Part shown: positions 4,199-34,635 of the stretch, piece by piece
Layout: every line of letters starts with the position of its first letter
How positions within the stretch are numbered: position 1 is the stretch's first letter
Origin: a virus
Length of the DNA stretch: 35,678 nucleotides
Virus record (IMG/VR): IMGVR_UViG_3300012920_000115
Location: 1-35,678 of that record
Direction: 5' to 3' (one strand)
Notes under the pieces: model-generated
The model's input: the letters and a program-made list of their open reading frames with translations, nothing else
Database searches by the model: none
What the model was told of the DNA's origin: nothing
Position numbers and translations under genes: made by a program

Positions 4199-4579
4199 GA
4201 TTTTCCTGAACGGGATTGAGGAGAGGATGGGATTGAGGGGGCTTGGGGTTATCGCGTAGAAAGTTAGTAGATAACCTTACCATGTAGGATAACCTTACCA
4301 TCTTACCCAAGGTTGGCAGTGGTTCGGTTAAGTTAGCTTTCCCAATACCTACAACGTTAGCGGTAAACTTAACCTACACTAGGGGGCAATCGCCTAGCCT
4401 CACCGTCGCACACCGAGCCTTGGTGGTAATAGTACCGTTGGCTACGAATATCCCCCTCGTTTTTCCCTGAAAAACTCACGTGCTATTCTGGACGCGGGCG
4501 GAAGTCTAGGGTGAAGGTACGTTATCAAGCGCTTCCAAGAACGTAGTGTCGAAAAACAAGTCGCCCTGCGGGCATCCCC

Positions 4580-4626
4580 GTTTTTCTCCCGGGGGGGCCT
4601 TATATGCCGGGGGGAGGTAAAAAAAC
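4580..4626. repeat. Imperfect G-rich palindrome
   Basis: GTTTTT (4580-4585) pairs with AAAAAC (4621-4626). CTCCC (4586-4590) pairs with GGGAG (4612-4616), and GGC (4596-4598) with GCC (4606-4608). Runs of seven and six G (4591-4597, 4609-4614) lie inside. It could form a cruciform or a G-rich structure. It has no clear T-tract in terminator position for the rightward strand. Confidence 0.4.
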
Positions 4627-4669
4627 GCACAGCCATTTTTTGACTTTTGAATGGTTAACTTAAAAAGTT

Positions 4670-4688: not shown

Positions 4689-4764
4689 AAGTTATTGAAT
4701 CAGCCCTTCGTCAATGCGTCGATTCAGACACGCACAGCGTTTAGCCAGTCCGGTTAACTTAAAA

Positions 4765-5070
4765 GGTTACAACTTTACATTTCGTTGACACTCTGTAACC
4801 TCTTTGTAACCTTCGATAATGTAGTTAGTTTCGTTATTATTCTAAAAAAGGTTACAAGTTACAAACTTTTCTAGTTGCGCTATATAAGAGATCACTAACT
4901 ACATACTTTTTTATATACCTACATATATAATTATACTTACTACTACTATTCCCTATATAGCTGTATGCGGAAATTTCTGTAACCTGTAACTTTTTACCCT
5001 CCGACTCTCGCATAACGTAGGTTCAATCGGCATACCTTATAGGTTACAAACTAGGTTACAACAGGTTACA
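4765..5070. repeat. GGTTACA box array flanking an AT-rich core, candidate replication origin
   Basis: GGTTACA-type boxes lie at 4765, 4850, 4858 (GTTACAA), 5042, 5054 and 5064 on the top strand. Inverted TGTAACC/T boxes lie at 4794, 4805, 4978 and 4985. Between the left and right groups, about 4866-4970 is extremely AT-rich with many TA steps, as expected of a DNA unwinding element. Iterons beside an AT-rich unwinding element, next to a helicase-primase gene, is a known origin layout in phages and plasmids. The origin call is inference. The boxes are seen directly. Confidence 0.6.
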
Positions 5071-5115
5071 AGCAGTCAAGAGCATGTTAAGTCTCGAAAC
5101 TACCTTAAGCACTCG

Positions 5116-5145: not shown

Positions 5146-5242
5146 ATAACCTGCATTGGTGCTATTGACACACATTTTTGAGCGCCCTAAAGTAGCAGAA
5201 GGGTCGCCACCAAGCGCGCCCAGAGTTCAACAAGGAGGGCCT

Positions 5243-5521
5243 ATGAGTCACACAGAAGATGAGTTTTACACTATTAAGGACATCGCAGCTAAACTAAAGG
5301 TATGCACGAACACCGTTCGCGCTTTAGTTAAGTCTAAGGAAATCCCTGCATTGAAGGTGGGTCACCAGTGGCGGATTACGGCTGACGATCTAAATACATT
5401 TATTGACCAACGCAAGCAGAGTCACGATGGGTCTAAAAAAGTTGTGCCTTTGACTGGACCTAAACACGCGAGTCAGGGTATCTTTGGCGACGATGCTGAT
5501 CACGACGATCTATTCGCTTAG
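5243..5521 (+). CDS. Excisionase-type helix-turn-helix DNA-binding protein
   Basis: The start is the ATG at 5243, preceded by AAGGAGG at 5232-5238. An upstream TTG-initiated frame from 5156 has no such site. The 92-residue product carries a clear MerR/excisionase-family HTH at about residues 5-60: EFYTIKDIAAKLKVCTNTVRALVKS, then VGHQWRITADDLNTFID. This is the usual 'DNA-binding domain, excisionase family' pattern, with the DNA-contacting helix around VCTNTVRALV and a wing at IPALKVGHQWRI. The short C-terminal tail is polar and acidic. It lies just downstream of the repeat-rich region and 9 bp before the primase-helicase. It is therefore a good candidate to bind those repeats as initiator, repressor or accessory factor. 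A true excisionase role is unsupported, since no integrase is seen. Confidence 0.85.
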   Translation: MSHTEDEFYTIKDIAAKLKVCTNTVRALVKSKEIPALKVGHQWRITADDLNTFIDQRKQSHDGSKKVVPLTGPKHASQGIFGDDADHDDLFA

Positions 5522-5530
5522 GATTACTCA

Positions 5531-8008
5531 ATGGCCCCACACCTATCCGCTAACATTGACGAGATTAGTGCGACCCTGCACGCCCTGTTTGACAAGGGGC
5601 AGGTCGTTGAGTTGCGCGTCATCTCTCCCCCCAAGTACGGGAGCAAGCCCCTCATCAAGTCAGGTTACTTTAACGACTTTGATGCGCTCGCTTCTGCCGC
5701 AGCAGCCTCATCAGACAACGGGGCGAATGGCGTTTACATCACGCCCAATAAGATTAACCCAGCCTTATTCTCCCGCAGTCCGAATAAGTTATCCAACGGG
5801 TTAGCTTCTACCACTGACGACGATGTGATCGAACACACGTACCTGCTCATTGACGTTGACCCCGTTCGACCGTCCCACATTTCAGCTAGTCAAGACGAGA
5901 AACGGTTAGCCTTTAAGGTTGTCCGCACTATTCTGGAAAGCTTGGATGCTGAAGGGTGGCCTCGTCCGATTGTAGGTGACTCCGGTAACGGTGCTCATCT
6001 TATTTACCGAGTGGAACTACCTCCACACCATACGATCATCCGTAGGTTTTACTCTGCGTTGAGCTTATTCTTCGATGTAGAAGGGGTGACCATTGACCAA
6101 AAGGTCTTCAATCCCTCACGGATTTGGAAACTGTATGGTACAGCCGCGCGTAAAGGTGGTGATACGGCAGAACGTCCACACCGTAAAGCCCGACTGCTTA
6201 ACGTTCCTGAAAACTTCCGAAAGGTTTCACGGGCTAAGATTGAGGAGTTCGCTAAACGCGCGCCCTTAGAAGCATCTGGTGGGTTTAACTCTGAACGGGC
6301 GACACGATTAGACACGTGGTTACACGCGCACTTCAAAGGTGCCGACAAACCAGTGGAGATGAAGTGGGGTGACAAGGGCCGTAAGTTTGTATTCGACGTA
6401 TGTCCCTTCGATGAGTCCCACAATGACACGTCCGCGTATATTGTTCAGACGAACTCCGGTGAAATCTTCGCAGGTTGCCAACATAAGAACTGCGTCGGAA
6501 CGGGACGTAAAGGTTGGAAGGCATTTCAGAACAAGTTCGGCAAGATGGGTGGCGGCACGAGTAGCAGTGGAGGAAGTTCATCGCAGCAACAGCCCTCCAG
6601 TGGGGCGATGCCGGGTCTAACTGACTTAGGTAACGCCAAGAGACTCATACAGGGTTTTGGTCAGAACCTAAGATTTGTTTCTAGCTGGAAGAAATGGTTA
6701 TATTATACCGGCAAGCGTTGGGAGACTGACGAGACAGGTCGGGTGATGCGTCTTGCGGAACAAGCTGTGGCGACGATTTTTGCAGAAGCGACAGCAGAGA
6801 GTGATACAGACCGCGCAAATCGGCTGTTCAAACACGCCGTGTCTTCCGAATCGTCAAAGGCGCTTCATTCTATGGTAAATCTAGCTGCCTACGAAGACGG
6901 GGTTTCAGTAACTGTGGGTCAACTGGACAAGGATCCTTGGAAACTAAACGTGTCTAATGGGACAGTGGACTTGAAGACGGGTCAGTTACTTCCTCACGCG
7001 CGTAATCATCTTATTACTAAAATGTGTCCCGTAGAGTACGATACTAATGCGGAATGCCCAACGTGGGATAACTTCTTATACGAGATTTTAGATGGACGAG
7101 TGGATCTTATTGCTTTTTTGTATCGCTATATTGGGTATTCTCTTACAGGTCTTGTAAGCGAACAGAAACTAATCTTCCTATACGGTACAGGTGCGAACGG
7201 TAAATCAACATTCTTGAATACCCTTCAGCATCTTATGGGAGCTTACTCAAAACAAGCTGCCCCTGAACTTCTTCTCTCCTCCAAGAGTGGTCGCCACCCA
7301 ACAGAAGTGGCGGATTTACTTGGGGCTAGATTTGTAGTGAGTTCAGAGATTGACCGTGGACGTGGATTAGCTGAAGCCTCGATTAAACAAATGACCGGGG
7401 GTGACGTAATTAAGGCCCGGTACATGAAAAAGGATTTTTTCGAGTTTCTTCCTACCCATAAGTTGTGGTTAGCCGCGAATCATAAGCCGATTATCAAGGG
7501 TAACGACGAAGGTATCTGGCGACGGGTGCTTTTGGTGCCGTTTGAAGTAAGCATCCCAGAATCAAAGCAGGACAAACAACTCGCGAATAAACTTCTTGCG
7601 GAGTTACCGGGTATTTTGAATCGCTTGGTCGCTGGTTGTTTGGATTGGCAGCGTAACGGACTCAACGCACCCAAGGAAGTAGTCGAGGCCACACAGGAAT
7701 ACCGGGAACAACTCGACCAACTTAAACCGTTTTTCGACGATGTGTGCCTGAAAGAGAAGGAAGCAGAGATTAACCCTAAGATGCTCTACAATGCTTTTCT
7801 CGATTGGTGCGAGGAGAACCATGAGACACCCATGAAGCCGCGATACTTTGCGATGTTGATGCGGGAACGTGGGTTTCGTCAGGGTAAGCCCACTAAGAAG
7901 GGTTCTAAAGTAACCTACCGCCCGTGGTTGGGTATCCGATTACGCGATGTAAAAGACTTAAAACCAAAAGTAAAGGTGATCCCTTTTGCCGAGAAAACAT
8001 CCCAATGA
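5531..8008 (+). CDS. Primase-polymerase fused to D5-type SF3 helicase (phage/plasmid primase, P4 family)
   Basis: An 825-residue replication protein. The N-terminal part (about 95-230) shows primase-polymerase motifs: LIDVDP with metal-binding D108 and D110, DSGNGAHLIY (S151-H156), and a later conserved part around NPSRIWKLYGTAARKG. Residues 289-321 contain CPF, then GCQHKNC, a probable zinc site. A Gly/Ser/Gln linker (about 338-360) leads to the D5 N-terminal domain and the SF3 helicase. The helicase has Walker A GTGANGKST (552-560), Walker B ARFVVSSEID (599-608), sensor LWLAANHKPI (645-654) and the arginine motif GIWRRVLLVPFE (661-672). A C-terminal winged-helix-like region follows. It should unwind and prime DNA at the phage origin. 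ATG 5531 lies 9 bp after the HTH gene with a weak AGGA site, so translation is probably coupled. Confidence 0.92.
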   Translation: MAPHLSANIDEISATLHALFDKGQVVELRVISPPKYGSKPLIKSGYFNDFDALASAAAASSDNGANGVYITPNKINPALFSRSPNKLSNGLASTTDDDVIEHTYLLIDVDPVRPSHISASQDEKRLAFKVVRTILESLDAEGWPRPIVGDSGNGAHLIYRVELPPHHTIIRRFYSALSLFFDVEGVTIDQKVFNPSRIWKLYGTAARKGGDTAERPHRKARLLNVPENFRKVSRAKIEEFAKRAPLEASGGFNSERATRLDTWLHAHFKGADKPVEMKWGDKGRKFVFDVCPFDESHNDTSAYIVQTNSGEIFAGCQHKNCVGTGRKGWKAFQNKFGKMGGGTSSSGGSSSQQQPSSGAMPGLTDLGNAKRLIQGFGQNLRFVSSWKKWLYYTGKRWETDETGRVMRLAEQAVATIFAEATAESDTDRANRLFKHAVSSESSKALHSMVNLAAYEDGVSVTVGQLDKDPWKLNVSNGTVDLKTGQLLPHARNHLITKMCPVEYDTNAECPTWDNFLYEILDGRVDLIAFLYRYIGYSLTGLVSEQKLIFLYGTGANGKSTFLNTLQHLMGAYSKQAAPELLLSSKSGRHPTEVADLLGARFVVSSEIDRGRGLAEASIKQMTGGDVIKARYMKKDFFEFLPTHKLWLAANHKPIIKGNDEGIWRRVLLVPFEVSIPESKQDKQLANKLLAELPGILNRLVAGCLDWQRNGLNAPKEVVEATQEYREQLDQLKPFFDDVCLKEKEAEINPKMLYNAFLDWCEENHETPMKPRYFAMLMRERGFRQGKPTKKGSKVTYRPWLGIRLRDVKDLKPKVKVIPFAEKTSQ

Positions 8009-28500: not shown

Positions 28501-31500
28501 ATGGCTGAAACACCTGAACAGACTTTTTCAGATGAAAAAGTGCCCCCAAAAGAGCCGGAATCTACCCTAAGTTTAGCCGAACGTGCGGAAAAAATACTGG
28601 GGTATAAACCGGGAACTTTTGAGTCTCGTAAAAACATAGAAGAAAAGCAAGCAAGAGAGCAAGCACGGGCAACAGGTTCAGCCAATTTACCTAAAGTCGA
28701 AGACTCTTTAAAAACTCTTGTAACAATTTATGGTGATAAGCTTAATGTTAAAACGCCAGAAGCTATGGGGAATTATTTAAAAGAAGAAGCCCTAAAAGAG
28801 GGTCCATTACCCCGAATCTTAAATACTCCTGAAGCCTCAAACTTTTTTAGTACCGTAGCTCGAACAGAGTTCGGTTACGAACCTCGCTCAAATACACCTA
28901 TATACAATTTAGACGCGTATAGAGAAGGTTTCAAACGTAACAAAAAAGAGCAAGACGAAGCTGTCGGACTTATGGAGCAAGCATATCAAAGCGAGGCACC
29001 TCCTGATATTAATTATGTTACTTCGTATGGCGGTCAAACATTAGAGGCTCCTCGGTTTGTGGAGGAGAACAAAGCCCAGCAGCAAGTTTTTAACAATTTA
29101 AATAAAGAATTATCTGGTGGTGCTTTAGGTAATTTGTTTGGTTTAAGTCTGACACCGCAGCAAGTACAGCTTCAACAGCGCGCCGCGAAAGTTTCCCCAG
29201 CCTCGTTGTCAGCGATGGGCCTGTCTGATCACGCGGCTAAGTTAGACGAAATCCGAAACTTAACAATTAGTAGTGATGTTTCTTTTGACAAACAGCCTTA
29301 CCGCACCAATCAAGTGTACGTCCACACTGTGGATGTAGGTAATGGAAGTAAGAACGCTATTAATATGCGGGCATTTCTTAACGACTTTGCGGTCGCGTAC
29401 AATGATATAGCGGCACAAGAGGCAGGGTTTAAAAACTTTGCTGATTTAAGTAGCTCCGATAAGTTTACTAAGGAGGACGTTGAGGCGATCACAGCTAAAT
29501 CAGTTGAAAAAGCTCTTGCAGATATTAAGCAGATTCAGCAACAGTCTCGTCCCGGGACAATTTTTATCGATGACCCAGACAAGCTTGTACGTGCTGTACG
29601 TAAGGGTGAAGACCCTCTTGCCTACACAAGTATTCCAGTCAACATCGCGTCAGGACTAAAAAACATCGGGGCTATTTCTGAAGAAACCTACGATGCTTTT
29701 TTACGTCAACGAGGTCCGTGGGCTGCGATTTGGTACCCACCATCAATGCGCCAGTTTAACATGGGTACTTTGACATATGCCGAGCAGGTTGAGGACATTA
29801 ATCCGGGCACGTTTCAACAGATTATGAACATTGGTCCTTTGAGGGTACTGGGGTCGTGGCTTTTAAGCGACGACAAAGAAATGACTTACGGAAGTTCGGA
29901 TCACCTACGGAATTTGCTCCAATTTGATTGGGGGCAAAACTTAGGTGAAGTGGGTAAAAAAGCCGCAGAATTAACCGGGGCTAAAGGTACTCGTTTTGAA
30001 AAACTAACAGAAGCAACCGGTACCGCATTGGGTACAGGGGTTATGTTTATTGAGCCGGATGTGATTACGTTAGCACTTTTACCTGTAGGATACGCAGGAA
30101 AAGCCGCGAAGTTCGGCGCAAAAACAGCGGCTAAAACTGCTACGGGTGCAGGTAGCGTTGCTGATGCTGCGGTTGTGTACCGGTTAAAACGTTACGAAAA
30201 CCTATTAGATGAAGCGGTTAAAAAAATAGAAGACGGGACGTTTACTAAATCCACTGAAGTAATGGATTTTTTTAGGAAGAACAATGCGTCCGAAATTAGC
30301 TCAATGTATGACCTTGAGCTAATGGGGGAATTGGCTCAATCTATCCGTGCTGGGACAAAAGGTAAGCGAGAATATAGCCCACGTTTTGACAGCTTAACCA
30401 GTAAGCTTTCTGAAACACGGGACAACATAAAAGACTTAACACAAGCCGTCTCTGATGAAACTGCACAGTATATCGATGCCTACGGGAAAGTACCCCCCGG
30501 TGCTGACGCGTCGGCGGTAGCGTTGCTGCGTAAACGTCAAGAAGAAGCGGTTTTAGAGTCTGGTTCAGCTTACGCTGCATTTGTTGGAGAGAGAGAAAAG
30601 CTTGCACGTGCAGCAGAGCAGCGAGGGGTACAACTAAGTCAGTTAAAAAAGCAAGACAGCACTGGAGCCGATTTTACTGATCAAGAGTTGGTTACTCTAG
30701 TAGAGAAAAGTAAAGAGGCCGCAGAAAATTTAGGCAAGCTACAGAATGAGTTTTTAGGTAAGAAATACTACTATGACGCACTGAAGTCGTTTAAAAAACT
30801 GACTAAAAAACAGGCTAGTGATGCGCGTGAGTTGGAGAAAAGCCTACCGAAATTGCGTAAACAAATTCGTGACGCTCAAGAGTTAGTACGTGATCGATGG
30901 GCTGATTCTGCTCTTAAAGCCCAGTATACTAAGTACGCGCGCGCTAAAGAACATTTTGAGGCAAAAGTCGTTGAAACAAGTCGGTTATTTGACGATTTAC
31001 CGTTACAAAAAGACGCGACTACCGGTGCAAAATTTAACCCTGCTACTCGTGTTCGCGAAGCATGGGCGGAGTGGTCCACGTTAAAAAAAGACGTTACGCG
31101 TCATCGTCGAAATTTGAATCGGGCTACGAAACCTAAAACTCAACAGAAACATCTTAAAGCTATTGCAGAGAAATCTGAAGAACTAAAGCAACTCCATAAC
31201 GAATTATTACGTTCGGTTGAGGTATATACGCAAGCGGCTGCAAAAGGCACTCCCGGTCTTGCCGACATTGGGACCAATCTCTATAAAAAGCTCGATAATG
31301 AGATCAAACTAGGGATTATTGAAAACAAGTCCGCTTATATGTTGAACGCTGTAAACCGTATAAAAAGCTCTGTGGGCGCGTATCAAGACGCGATAAAAAC
31401 AAATCGTTTAACTACGCAATCCCCTCTAGTACAAGAGTCTAAGTTTAGTAAGTTAGATCCTAACGATCCTTCGCGTGTTATTTTTGATCGAACCAAGTAC

Positions 31501-34500
31501 GTCGATGAATTACTTAATCGTTATACTGTAGACCTTGATCCAGCTATACACGGCGCAGTTAAAAAAACTATTTTAGATTCACCAGCAATTAGAACGTTAA
31601 ACGACTTGAAGCCTAACCCAAATGGTAGCATTACACTGGGTGCAGAAGAACTACGTAAACTAGCCGACTTTGAGAATACTTATGCAACCCAACGCATAAA
31701 CGAAGCGGGCGCTGTAACAAGTGTTGCTCAAGGGTTGATTCGAGCGTGGGCGAGGCCCCCTATTATCGATAAGGTATTTAGGGGCATGGATGTTACCGAC
31801 CCTAAAACTTGGCTAGACACAGCGTTACGGGCGGGTTTTAGGACTGCTCGCGGCTATCGACGCATGTTTGACCCAATGGCCCATCGGTTTGGTGATTTCA
31901 ACGAGGGAGCCTTAACATCGGCTCAAGTCGCAATTACACGGCAAGGGCGCGCTAACGAAGAACTTACCTTGCTCTCCGATCAATGGATTCGAGAAGGCAA
32001 GGGATACATCAGCAACGTCACTAAATACCTGACAACTGACGAAGCTTTCTTTGTTCAGTTTCGCGGTCAGAAAAAAATGACTGATGAAGGTTTAGGTGTA
32101 GGTGTACCGGCGTTAATGAATCAAGGTGAATTTACCCCTTGGAAAAAATTTAAGTCTTATATTCTGGAACTAGATCGACCTGCTGAAGCTTTAGCTTTAA
32201 AAGCTGTTGCTTATGCCTATGTCCCTAGAGGAGCCAAGTTAGAGGACACTGCTTTCAGTGCACAGGTACTTGACAAGACCATTCAATGGATCAAGGATCT
32301 CGATGATCAGTCTGACATCCTCGATGACGCAGCGCAACTTAAGGAGCTATCCAGAAGAATAAAACGCTACACAAGTGATCAGATTGGAATTGACGTTGAC
32401 GCAAATCGAACGTTCGCTTTTATTGCCAAGGGCATCCTGCACGGAGCAGTTACAAATGACTTTTTAACAGATTTGGCGCGTGCGGGCGGCATTTCTATGT
32501 CAACCAAAGAGGCTCTAGCTGCAAACACTATTTTGGGGCAGGTTAAGGTTGTCACTGAATTTAACCCGAAAACAGGTAAACAAGAGGCTCTTGTAGATTC
32601 ATTATCACCCGGAGGAAAAACAGGCTTTAGTCCTGCTGAAGGCTTTAAGGCATTAGAGCAGTACGGGTTGTCTATGGAAGACCTAGAATTTCAAACGATT
32701 TACCGTAACTTAAATCGAATGGAAAACCTTACGACTAAACTTATTGCGACTAACAAATTAGGGGGTGGGTCTAAAGCATCTTTTGTTCCCCAATCCTTAA
32801 TTACTCAAATCCAAGAAGCAGCGGGTCCAATCGCAAAAGACTTAGGTTCTATAAAAGCGCCCGACAGTATGGTTAGAAAAGCCCTCAATTTAACTGGGAC
32901 TTACCTTCGGGCATGGCGTACAAACATTTTGTTTGGGTCAGTGGTGCCTCGCGCTAGTTTTTTTACTAACCAAGGTTTCGGGGATCTTTCGCAGTTACAC
33001 ACATTTGAAGGTGCGGTAAGTATCCGAGAAGCCCAACTGGGTCGCTATAAAGGTAAAAAATACGCAACAGGTGCCTTACCTTTAATGTTCCAAAACGCAT
33101 TCACTTACGTTCCATATTGGGGGAACTGGGTTCAAGATTTTTTAATTGAACGAACAAAAGACGCTACAAAATCAGGGCGTAGAAATGTTTTAACAACACC
33201 CCTGCAAGCTGCCTTTAATCCTTACTTAACTAGCTTAATGCGTATGTCTGACGAGTTAGTAGAGACAAAAGAAGGTTTTAGATCGACACGACAGTTTATG
33301 GAAGAAGCTTTAGACGATGGTGTCTTCGATACTTTAATGACAGACGACTTGTACAAAATGCTTGATGATGCGAACAAAGCCCATCAAGGCACAATAATGG
33401 ACAAAGTTGACAGGGTACTTACAGGGGTTAGCAACTTTAGTAGCAACTGGACAAACATGATAACAACGATTCAAGCTAGGCAACGTTTAGCTGTATATGC
33501 TGATTACCGCTTGATGCGGGGGGAAGCTCGTTCGGCATCAAAACTAGCTGTTATGGATTCACTGTATGATTGGCGGCATGGGGTCACTGATTGGGAGATG
33601 GCCACACTTGGTCAGTTTGTTGCCTTCTACTCGTTTTTTAGGTTGGGAGCCAAACAGTTTCAGCGAGCCTTACTAGAGGGATTGACTAACCCTAGTTTAG
33701 ATCTAGCCAAGCGCGCTATGGTAGGCAGAAGTAAATTAGCCCGAATGCGTAATCAAGGTCGAATGGTTTATTCAGTTGCGAACTACGTGTTTAATGAAGA
33801 CGTTGACCAAGCGATGAATGAAGCTGAAATGCAGCATGAGATTTATCGTAGATTACGTCCGTGGTGGATCGGATCTAGGCCCGCTCCATCCAATCAACTT
33901 ATGCCCGAAATCGATCAGGTACAGTTTAGACGCGCGGGGCGCGACGAAACTTACTACACGACAGTATACCCAATGTGGACTGCCTTAGACATGGCTGACT
34001 TACACCTTAAACTATTCAACGGTACTGTGGGTAGTATGCTGTATTATGGGAACAAAGGTCAAGTTCGTCCGTCCTTTGATGCGGGTAAAACAATTAACAA
34101 GACCCTAAATGATTTTTCACACCCACTTTTTAAAAGAGTCACAGAAGCTACAACAGGGTTTATTTTTGATGAACCGAGTGCGTATCGCTCACCAAAAGGC
34201 AAGCGATTACGATTGGGCGAAAACGGGGCGTATCTGGCTTACTCAAAAGTCCCTTTTTTAGGTAGCTTAATTAATATTACACCAGACAAGAAAGGGTACT
34301 ACGTTGACAACACTACCGTGGCTATGATTAGAGGTATCCCTATACTTGGGACGGACATCCCTAATCTTTGGCGCGATATCGGCCCTGTATCAATGGGCGG
34401 AGGTAACCCTAAGTGGGCCAGTGAATCGACTGAAGCCATGAAATTTATGTTACGGAACTGGTCTGGAATAGGTAAGCAAATACCTTTTGCGCCCGGTCAA

Positions 34501-34635
34501 GCCCTCGACTACAACCGCAAGCAAGTAGCTGCCGACTTAAAGACAAAAAGGAAGCAGTTGATGGAACGCGCGGCAAGTGAAGGTGGACCAGATACATCGC
34601 GAGAGTCCGAAGCTATTTTATATGATGAGAAATAA
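28501..34635 (+). CDS. Giant internal virion (ejection) protein, gp16-like by order, 2044 residues
   Basis: At 2044 residues this is by far the largest protein in the window. Residues 1-500 are mixed helical. Residues 505-550 hold a hydrophobic, Gly/Ala-rich stretch (GTGVMFIEPDVITLALLPVG and on) that could insert in a membrane. Residues 560-910 are long charged helices, probably coiled coil. The C-terminal third includes the aromatic segment TLGQFVAFYSFFRLGAKQFQ and further hydrophobic parts near the end (PFLGSLINITPDKKGYYVDN). I see no lytic transglycosylase or polymerase motif, unlike T7 gp16 or the N4 virion polymerase. Position as the last and largest gene of the cassette supports ejection into the host to form a DNA channel. 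Polyvalent-protein function is an alternative. Confidence 0.6.
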   Translation: MAETPEQTFSDEKVPPKEPESTLSLAERAEKILGYKPGTFESRKNIEEKQAREQARATGSANLPKVEDSLKTLVTIYGDKLNVKTPEAMGNYLKEEALKEGPLPRILNTPEASNFFSTVARTEFGYEPRSNTPIYNLDAYREGFKRNKKEQDEAVGLMEQAYQSEAPPDINYVTSYGGQTLEAPRFVEENKAQQQVFNNLNKELSGGALGNLFGLSLTPQQVQLQQRAAKVSPASLSAMGLSDHAAKLDEIRNLTISSDVSFDKQPYRTNQVYVHTVDVGNGSKNAINMRAFLNDFAVAYNDIAAQEAGFKNFADLSSSDKFTKEDVEAITAKSVEKALADIKQIQQQSRPGTIFIDDPDKLVRAVRKGEDPLAYTSIPVNIASGLKNIGAISEETYDAFLRQRGPWAAIWYPPSMRQFNMGTLTYAEQVEDINPGTFQQIMNIGPLRVLGSWLLSDDKEMTYGSSDHLRNLLQFDWGQNLGEVGKKAAELTGAKGTRFEKLTEATGTALGTGVMFIEPDVITLALLPVGYAGKAAKFGAKTAAKTATGAGSVADAAVVYRLKRYENLLDEAVKKIEDGTFTKSTEVMDFFRKNNASEISSMYDLELMGELAQSIRAGTKGKREYSPRFDSLTSKLSETRDNIKDLTQAVSDETAQYIDAYGKVPPGADASAVALLRKRQEEAVLESGSAYAAFVGEREKLARAAEQRGVQLSQLKKQDSTGADFTDQELVTLVEKSKEAAENLGKLQNEFLGKKYYYDALKSFKKLTKKQASDARELEKSLPKLRKQIRDAQELVRDRWADSALKAQYTKYARAKEHFEAKVVETSRLFDDLPLQKDATTGAKFNPATRVREAWAEWSTLKKDVTRHRRNLNRATKPKTQQKHLKAIAEKSEELKQLHNELLRSVEVYTQAAAKGTPGLADIGTNLYKKLDNEIKLGIIENKSAYMLNAVNRIKSSVGAYQDAIKTNRLTTQSPLVQESKFSKLDPNDPSRVIFDRTKYVDELLNRYTVDLDPAIHGAVKKTILDSPAIRTLNDLKPNPNGSITLGAEELRKLADFENTYATQRINEAGAVTSVAQGLIRAWARPPIIDKVFRGMDVTDPKTWLDTALRAGFRTARGYRRMFDPMAHRFGDFNEGALTSAQVAITRQGRANEELTLLSDQWIREGKGYISNVTKYLTTDEAFFVQFRGQKKMTDEGLGVGVPALMNQGEFTPWKKFKSYILELDRPAEALALKAVAYAYVPRGAKLEDTAFSAQVLDKTIQWIKDLDDQSDILDDAAQLKELSRRIKRYTSDQIGIDVDANRTFAFIAKGILHGAVTNDFLTDLARAGGISMSTKEALAANTILGQVKVVTEFNPKTGKQEALVDSLSPGGKTGFSPAEGFKALEQYGLSMEDLEFQTIYRNLNRMENLTTKLIATNKLGGGSKASFVPQSLITQIQEAAGPIAKDLGSIKAPDSMVRKALNLTGTYLRAWRTNILFGSVVPRASFFTNQGFGDLSQLHTFEGAVSIREAQLGRYKGKKYATGALPLMFQNAFTYVPYWGNWVQDFLIERTKDATKSGRRNVLTTPLQAAFNPYLTSLMRMSDELVETKEGFRSTRQFMEEALDDGVFDTLMTDDLYKMLDDANKAHQGTIMDKVDRVLTGVSNFSSNWTNMITTIQARQRLAVYADYRLMRGEARSASKLAVMDSLYDWRHGVTDWEMATLGQFVAFYSFFRLGAKQFQRALLEGLTNPSLDLAKRAMVGRSKLARMRNQGRMVYSVANYVFNEDVDQAMNEAEMQHEIYRRLRPWWIGSRPAPSNQLMPEIDQVQFRRAGRDETYYTTVYPMWTALDMADLHLKLFNGTVGSMLYYGNKGQVRPSFDAGKTINKTLNDFSHPLFKRVTEATTGFIFDEPSAYRSPKGKRLRLGENGAYLAYSKVPFLGSLINITPDKKGYYVDNTTVAMIRGIPILGTDIPNLWRDIGPVSMGGGNPKWASESTEAMKFMLRNWSGIGKQIPFAPGQALDYNRKQVAADLKTKRKQLMERAASEGGPDTSRESEAILYDEK

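Follow-up and report, generated by a model that had tools for sequence, protein, structure and literature searches.

Where an uncultured marine phage starts to copy its DNA, and which of its proteins recognizes that place, are the questions raised by the locus described here. The window, i.e. the whole stretch of 35,678 nucleotides that was analysed (IMG/VR record IMGVR_UViG_3300012920_000115), contains a 306 bp region at positions 4765–5070 for which a preliminary description had proposed a replication origin, with ten GGTTACA boxes around an AT-rich core. As judged from the sequence, copying of the phage DNA very probably begins in this region, and the array is best interpreted as an origin of the theta type that belongs to the adjacent AEP primase/D5 (SF3) helicase, of the kind known from phage P4 and the SaPIs.

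The box array and its genomic setting

The ten boxes were confirmed as eight exact copies of GGTTACA and two of AGTTACA, and the core between them as a segment of 114 bp with 72% A+T, in which the richest 60 bp reach 80% A+T. The spacing of 12 and 10 bp given for the direct copies on the right was likewise correct. The window contains GGTTACA 11 times, and 8 of these copies fall into the 306 bp. No other 6-mer of the window is as clustered as GTTACA. It occurs ten times in 306 bp, as compared with no more than 4 times when the whole window was shuffled (n=200) and no more than 5 times when the local 641 bp of AT-rich DNA were shuffled (n=5,000). The array lies in a 1.3-kb gap between an ORF of 686 aa on one side and an HTH_17 gene on the other, and thus consists, as in P4/SaPI-type origins, of short iterons in non-coding DNA that adjoins the region of the initiator-helicase gene. 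The features of the locus are as follows, where members are the window and its ten compared relatives:

4765–4771, plus strand: box A, GGTTACA, outer left; present in 7 of 11 members and replaced in 4 by a third minus-strand box
4785–4790, plus strand: TTGACA element of the left arm, in helical phase with the boxes
4794–4800, minus strand: box B, exact GGTTACA
4805–4811, minus strand: box C, GGTTACA, 11 bp from B
4850–4856, plus strand: box D, exact GGTTACA
4857–4863, plus strand: box E, AGTTACA, in tandem with D
4864–4977, no strand: AT-rich core, candidate unwinding element
4978–4984, minus strand: box F, GGTTACA
4985–4991, minus strand: box G, AGTTACA, in tandem with F; degenerate in L006, L007, L008, L010 and L015
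5042–5048, plus strand: box H, exact GGTTACA
5054–5060, plus strand: box I, GGTTACA
5064–5070, plus strand: box J, GGTTACA
5075–5079, minus strand: GTCAA element past box J, mirroring the left TTGACA
5165–5193, plus strand: sigma-70-like promoter TTGACA-17-TAAAGT of the HTH/primase-helicase operon; TTGAC hexamer kept in relatives
5243–5521, plus strand: HTH_17 (MerR/Xis/BldC-like) protein of 92 aa with an acidic D/E-D-L-F tail
5531–8008, plus strand: protein of 825 aa with AEP primase, D5/SF3 helicase and C-terminal winged helix (residues ~731–808), the proposed initiator

Further repeats were observed upstream of the array. A direct repeat, GGTTAACTTAAAA(A/G)GTT, occurs at 4653–4669 and 4752–4768, 99 bp apart, with the second copy running into box A, and has counterparts in the close relatives L001–L003 and L005. 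The stretch 4565–4640 contains a C-rich/G-rich hairpin followed by (A)GGAGGTAAAAAAACGCAC and is also found in L001–L005, L007 and L010; this conserved GC-rich stretch folds no better than its shuffles, and an Rfam search that included it gave no match. A second repeat family, (A)TAAACATTACC / AACCTTACC, at 4259–4320 perhaps represents operators; these motifs are also present in L001 (201–290), L002 (1385–1480) and L003 (95–170), and one extra copy lies directly ahead of the HTH promoter in L001–L003.

In the window as well as in G046, G047 and G049, the proposed check by GC skew placed the cumulative minimum at a distance of 0.8–1.6 kb from the boxes; it was farther off in G051 (3.5 kb) and G050 (4.9 kb) and uninformative in G048. 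Where both sides of the array could be seen, genes on its left tend to point leftwards and those on its right rightwards, and since the skew is confounded by this divergent orientation, its weight as evidence is low. In G048, the arm that runs leftwards contains genes for a family-A DNA polymerase, an SNF2-type helicase, a PD-(D/E)XK nuclease and an AAA_24 protein; the polymerase is part of a single 818-aa protein (L289, 260–2713) that combines an N-terminal uracil-DNA-glycosylase-superfamily domain, a 3'-5' exonuclease and the family-A polymerase. At 28501–34635, the window contains an ORF of 2044 aa, which is very large for the size of the genome and measures ~1900–2050 aa in relatives.

Conservation and geometry of the array in relatives

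Relatives with the primase-helicase were collected from IMG/VR scans (67–84% identity), and the ten with upstream DNA (L001–L008, L010 and L015) were compared with the window. The boxes are retained by all ten of these relatives with the same helicase, so that the loss of boxes for which the preliminary description had proposed to look did not occur; its view that the arrangement is specific to this phage was mistaken, because the layout is kept in all ten as well. Together with the nearby skew minimum, this conservation supports the interpretation of the region as a putative origin.

Several distances are invariant in all 11 members, namely 7 bp between D and E, 64 bp from the start of F to H, 12 bp between H and I and 10 bp between I and J. 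The spacing of B and C is 11 or 12 bp, and that of C and D is 45 bp in 10 of 11 members and 67 bp, i.e. two helical turns longer, in L005. The 50 bp spacer between G and H is constant in length while its sequence is little conserved. Similarly, the AT-rich segment bounded by iterons, a feature of P4/SaPI-type origins, is present in all 11 members, where it drifts in sequence and length (105–118 bp) while its A+T content stays at 64–81%; its edges carry CTATA/TATAG motifs. Since the spacings are rigid while the sequences of spacer and core drift, the layout is a trait of the family, and it is its geometry that is constrained.

In L004, L005, L006 and L008, the left arm consists of three minus-strand boxes at 10 and 11–12 bp, which is the mirror image of the right triplet. 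The mirror continues outward into the TTGAC sites, as illustrated by L004, in which the left arm reads CTTGACATGTTCTTGACTGCTTGTAACCCTTTGTAACCTCTTTGTAACC and the right arm, when reverse-complemented, CTTGACAACTTCTTGACGGTCTGTAACCTTCTGTAACCTAGTTTGTAACC. When the two arms (60 bp each) were scored for local dyad symmetry, the 11 members reached 18–31, compared to shuffle means of 7.3–7.7. With outer arms that are inverted copies of each other, the whole array forms a dyad.

More distant relatives (44–51% identity) also possess a non-coding box region upstream, with other words: ACTACGC in L142, AGTGAA in L145 and GTCCTC in L138. GTCCTC repeats in L137 and L141 were recognized by eye and were not significant in a shuffle test. 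As these five phages carry other words, GGTTACA itself is a feature of the clade. In L142, at least 12 copies of CTTGACA were noticed at 400–800 (about –1096 to –700 from D5), upstream of the ACTACGC boxes, several of them as pairs 11 bp apart like in the outer arms of L004.

Among GenBank phages, no DNA match to the window phage was found. Other GTTACA triplets in IMG/VR belong mostly to unrelated arrays, and as only 1 of 45 non-family records with such a triplet (L020) had a D5_N match, the triplet alone is no marker of the system. L020 carries ~10 GTTACA boxes in both orientations at 5400–5760, just downstream of a D5 gene whose helicase is only 22% similar. The genome-contig relatives were mainly Methanomicrobiales, and the GTTACA array was absent from all 13 that were checked.

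The putative initiator and the recognition of the boxes

The 825-aa protein matches the D5_N and DUF5906 profiles, and its AlphaFold model has a mean pLDDT of 85.6. The model, which predicts a D5/SF3 helicase fold as in P4/SaPI-type initiators, aligned in VIA-align with AsfvPrimPol (Z 31.8), the SaPI5 primase-helicase (Z 30.6), MPXV E5/vaccinia D5 (Z ~28) and NrS-1 polymerase (Z 21). Its N-terminal domain is AEP-like, as it aligned with primases of this family (S-2L PrimPol, Z 17.1), and not of the Toprim type that characterizes phage P4 sensu stricto. Residues ~731–808 are modelled with the order of elements of a winged helix, and the alignment to AsfvPrimPol extends through residue 808. In a profile comparison, this C-terminus weakly matched RFX5 (E 0.005), and phmmer with the isolated C-terminus returned nothing meaningful. 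The tail of the ASFV homologue has been likened to the origin-binding domain of P4 and to RFX1 (PMC10516667), and the RFX half-site is RGYAAC (PMC2375033); the resemblance of GTTAC/GTAAC to this half-site is a lead only.

A natural experiment on box recognition is offered by phi105-type Bacillus phages, to which box words were assigned from DNA alone as TGTTACT, GGGTTAAT or GGGTTAYT, the latter merged by sequence inspection from the automatic classes GGTTACT and GGGTTA. L325, L330, L337–L340 and L344, with degenerate or other boxes, were excluded from the final pair counts. For pairs with a helicase identity of 0.90–1.0, which are not independent of each other, the winged-helix stretch (phi105 residues 735–772) was 0.84–1.00 identical when the box was the same (n=120) and 0.58–0.74 identical when it differed (n=205), without overlap. 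L321 and L322, for example, are 99% identical in the helicase and 61% identical in the winged-helix stretch, and their boxes differ, while L324 combines the winged helix (93%) and the box of the L313 group with a body as in the L322 group (96% and 99%), its helicase being 99% identical to that of L322. The differences cluster in the wing. This joint change of box word and C-terminal winged helix in helicases that are >90% identical points to the winged helix as reader. In these phages, the winged helix adjoins the boxes, so that a single recombination could transfer both and linkage alone could explain the coupling; this caveat does not apply to the window family, in which a distance of 2.7 kb separates the winged helix from the boxes and conservation extends to both. 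Considering also that no HTH_17 protein was found among the phi105 neighbours scanned, and that SaPI Rep and Cch2 bind their iterons via the C-terminal domain (PMC7581432), the boxes are probably read by the C-terminal winged helix of the neighbouring primase-helicase.

The HTH_17 protein, whose gene separates the boxes from the helicase gene in all complete members, would be the other candidate, in which case the region would still be an origin and the acidic tail would recruit the helicase. Its model shows a winged helix of the MerR/Xis/BldC-like type and an acidic tail that is disordered, its nearest folds are RacA, BldC and Xis, its recognition helix V-x-x-N-T-V-R is invariant, and the 10–12 bp phasing of the boxes would agree with the ability of BldC/Xis-like proteins to bind direct repeats head-to-tail. 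However, equivalent arrays in phi105, L020 (with GTTACA boxes) and L145 have no adjoining HTH_17 gene, the identity of the HTH protein decreases to 30–37% where boxes and D5 winged helix are conserved, and the box word of the Bacillus phages follows the D5 winged helix, all of which makes recognition by HTH_17 unlikely. This protein is probably a co-factor or helper, or a regulator of initiation or of the operon, rather than the main reader of the boxes. Its C-terminus (window 5492–5518) shows a conserved acidic tip (DDLFA, DDLFD, EEDLFGE; LDLF in L142) behind an unconserved linker; the tip resembles an SSB tail and may contact the helicase or the replisome.

Two further explanations would deprive the boxes of a role as initiator sites. 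As operators of the HTH/primase operon promoter, outside of any origin, they would be close to a promoter-like site and the HTH gene; yet the promoter begins 95 bp past box J and hence does not overlap with the boxes, which are arranged symmetrically over 306 bp in both orientations with an AT-rich core inside, and the equivalent arrays of other phages sit downstream of the helicase gene, so that we regard this explanation as quite improbable. Even less credit is given to a cruciform or stem-loop origin, in which the boxes would be mere stem sequence. D/E are complementary to F/G and could pair, and a stem-loop origin has been proposed for pRN1 with its comparable AEP-SF3-winged-helix initiator (PMC4234260). 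Against this stand a single-strand fold with a z of –1.6 that was equalled by 15 of 200 shuffles, the degeneration of box G, and thereby of its pairing, in five members, and the position of the outer boxes outside of any D/E-F/G stem.

The origin model and its relation to known systems

In the model that we prefer, with a probability of roughly 0.78 for the explanation as a whole, 4765–5091 constitutes the origin, and the C-terminal winged helix of the primase-helicase would bind the GTTACA boxes on two inverted arms. The oppositely oriented direct triplets and the tandem pairs would position two helicase rings face to face over the AT-rich core, the core would melt, the AEP domain would prime, and a family-A DNA polymerase, such as that found in one longer relative, would extend, resulting in bidirectional theta replication. 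A more elaborate version is tentative and rather doubtful: it supposes a geometry-locked dyad in which each arm consists of five ~10-bp-phased sites (three GGTTACA and two TTGAC-type) and the 64 and 45 bp arm-core distances may act as docking ruler for two D5 hexamers, together with a swappable RFX-like wing exchanged along with the boxes and the HTH_17 acidic-tail protein as dedicated loader of this lineage.

Inverted iteron arrays, each with its own word, were found beside D5 in most of the D5 phages checked (phi105, AcaML1, Listeria, Staphylococcus and others). Repeats in both orientations lie just downstream of D5 in the cultured phages phi105, A9Y, Wrath, EV3, PLM26, DS11, AcaML1, R18.1 and ZoeJ, mostly with 9–12 bp spacing and mostly around AT-rich DNA; in JuneStar and L4768, the stretch downstream of D5 contained no clear array. 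At 28 of 48 D5 loci, an array on one side or on both exceeded every one of 30 shuffles (~3 expected by chance), and at the other 20 no significant array was detected in the stretches tested. Many D5-type phages would thus share one origin design in which box word and C-terminal winged helix vary jointly, making the specificity code of self-loading phage helicases testable via domain swaps. The uncultured phage group described here gains a defined candidate origin, whose strict geometry is directly testable.

Among known systems, pRN1 ORF904 and NrS-1 PrimPol resemble the window initiator in uniting primase, SF3 helicase and C-terminal domain in one protein, but the origin of pRN1 has the form of a stem-loop and lacks iterons, in contrast to the iteron array of the window. 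The D5 region of phi105 is similar to the window in having TGTTACT/AGTAACA pairs 9 bp apart that lie beside D5, in inverted orientation on the two sides of an AT-rich core; it differs in that its origin is downstream, no HTH_17 gene adjoins it and the N-terminal region is only ~21% identical. Rep/Pri-Rep of SaPI5 and SaPIbov1 and Cch2 of SCCmec are self-loading helicases with iterons read by the C-terminal domain (PMC7581432), and SaPI5 Pri-Rep, among the closest solved folds to the window initiator, has an AEP primase too. SaPI and SCCmec origins are located directly downstream of the helicase gene, and most other D5 systems also have their origin on the downstream side, whereas that of the window lies upstream with the HTH gene in between, which counts against the model; word and geometry differ as well. 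Phage P4 requires a distant second region, crr, of which no counterpart was found in the window; its primase is of the Toprim type and its box word is different. Its ori, on the other hand, contains TGTTCACC iterons (annotated as type I repeats) that are directly repeated with spacings of 10 and 11 bp and, as in the window, surround AT-rich DNA in both orientations, and its alpha protein combines an SF3 helicase with a C-terminal winged-helix origin-binding domain in the way predicted for the window initiator (PMC10516667, PMC4234260). An origin of the P4/SaPI kind is therefore known in principle, and what the window adds, as a convincing prediction, is its unusual place upstream of the helicase gene and behind the HTH gene, and an unusually rigid dyad.
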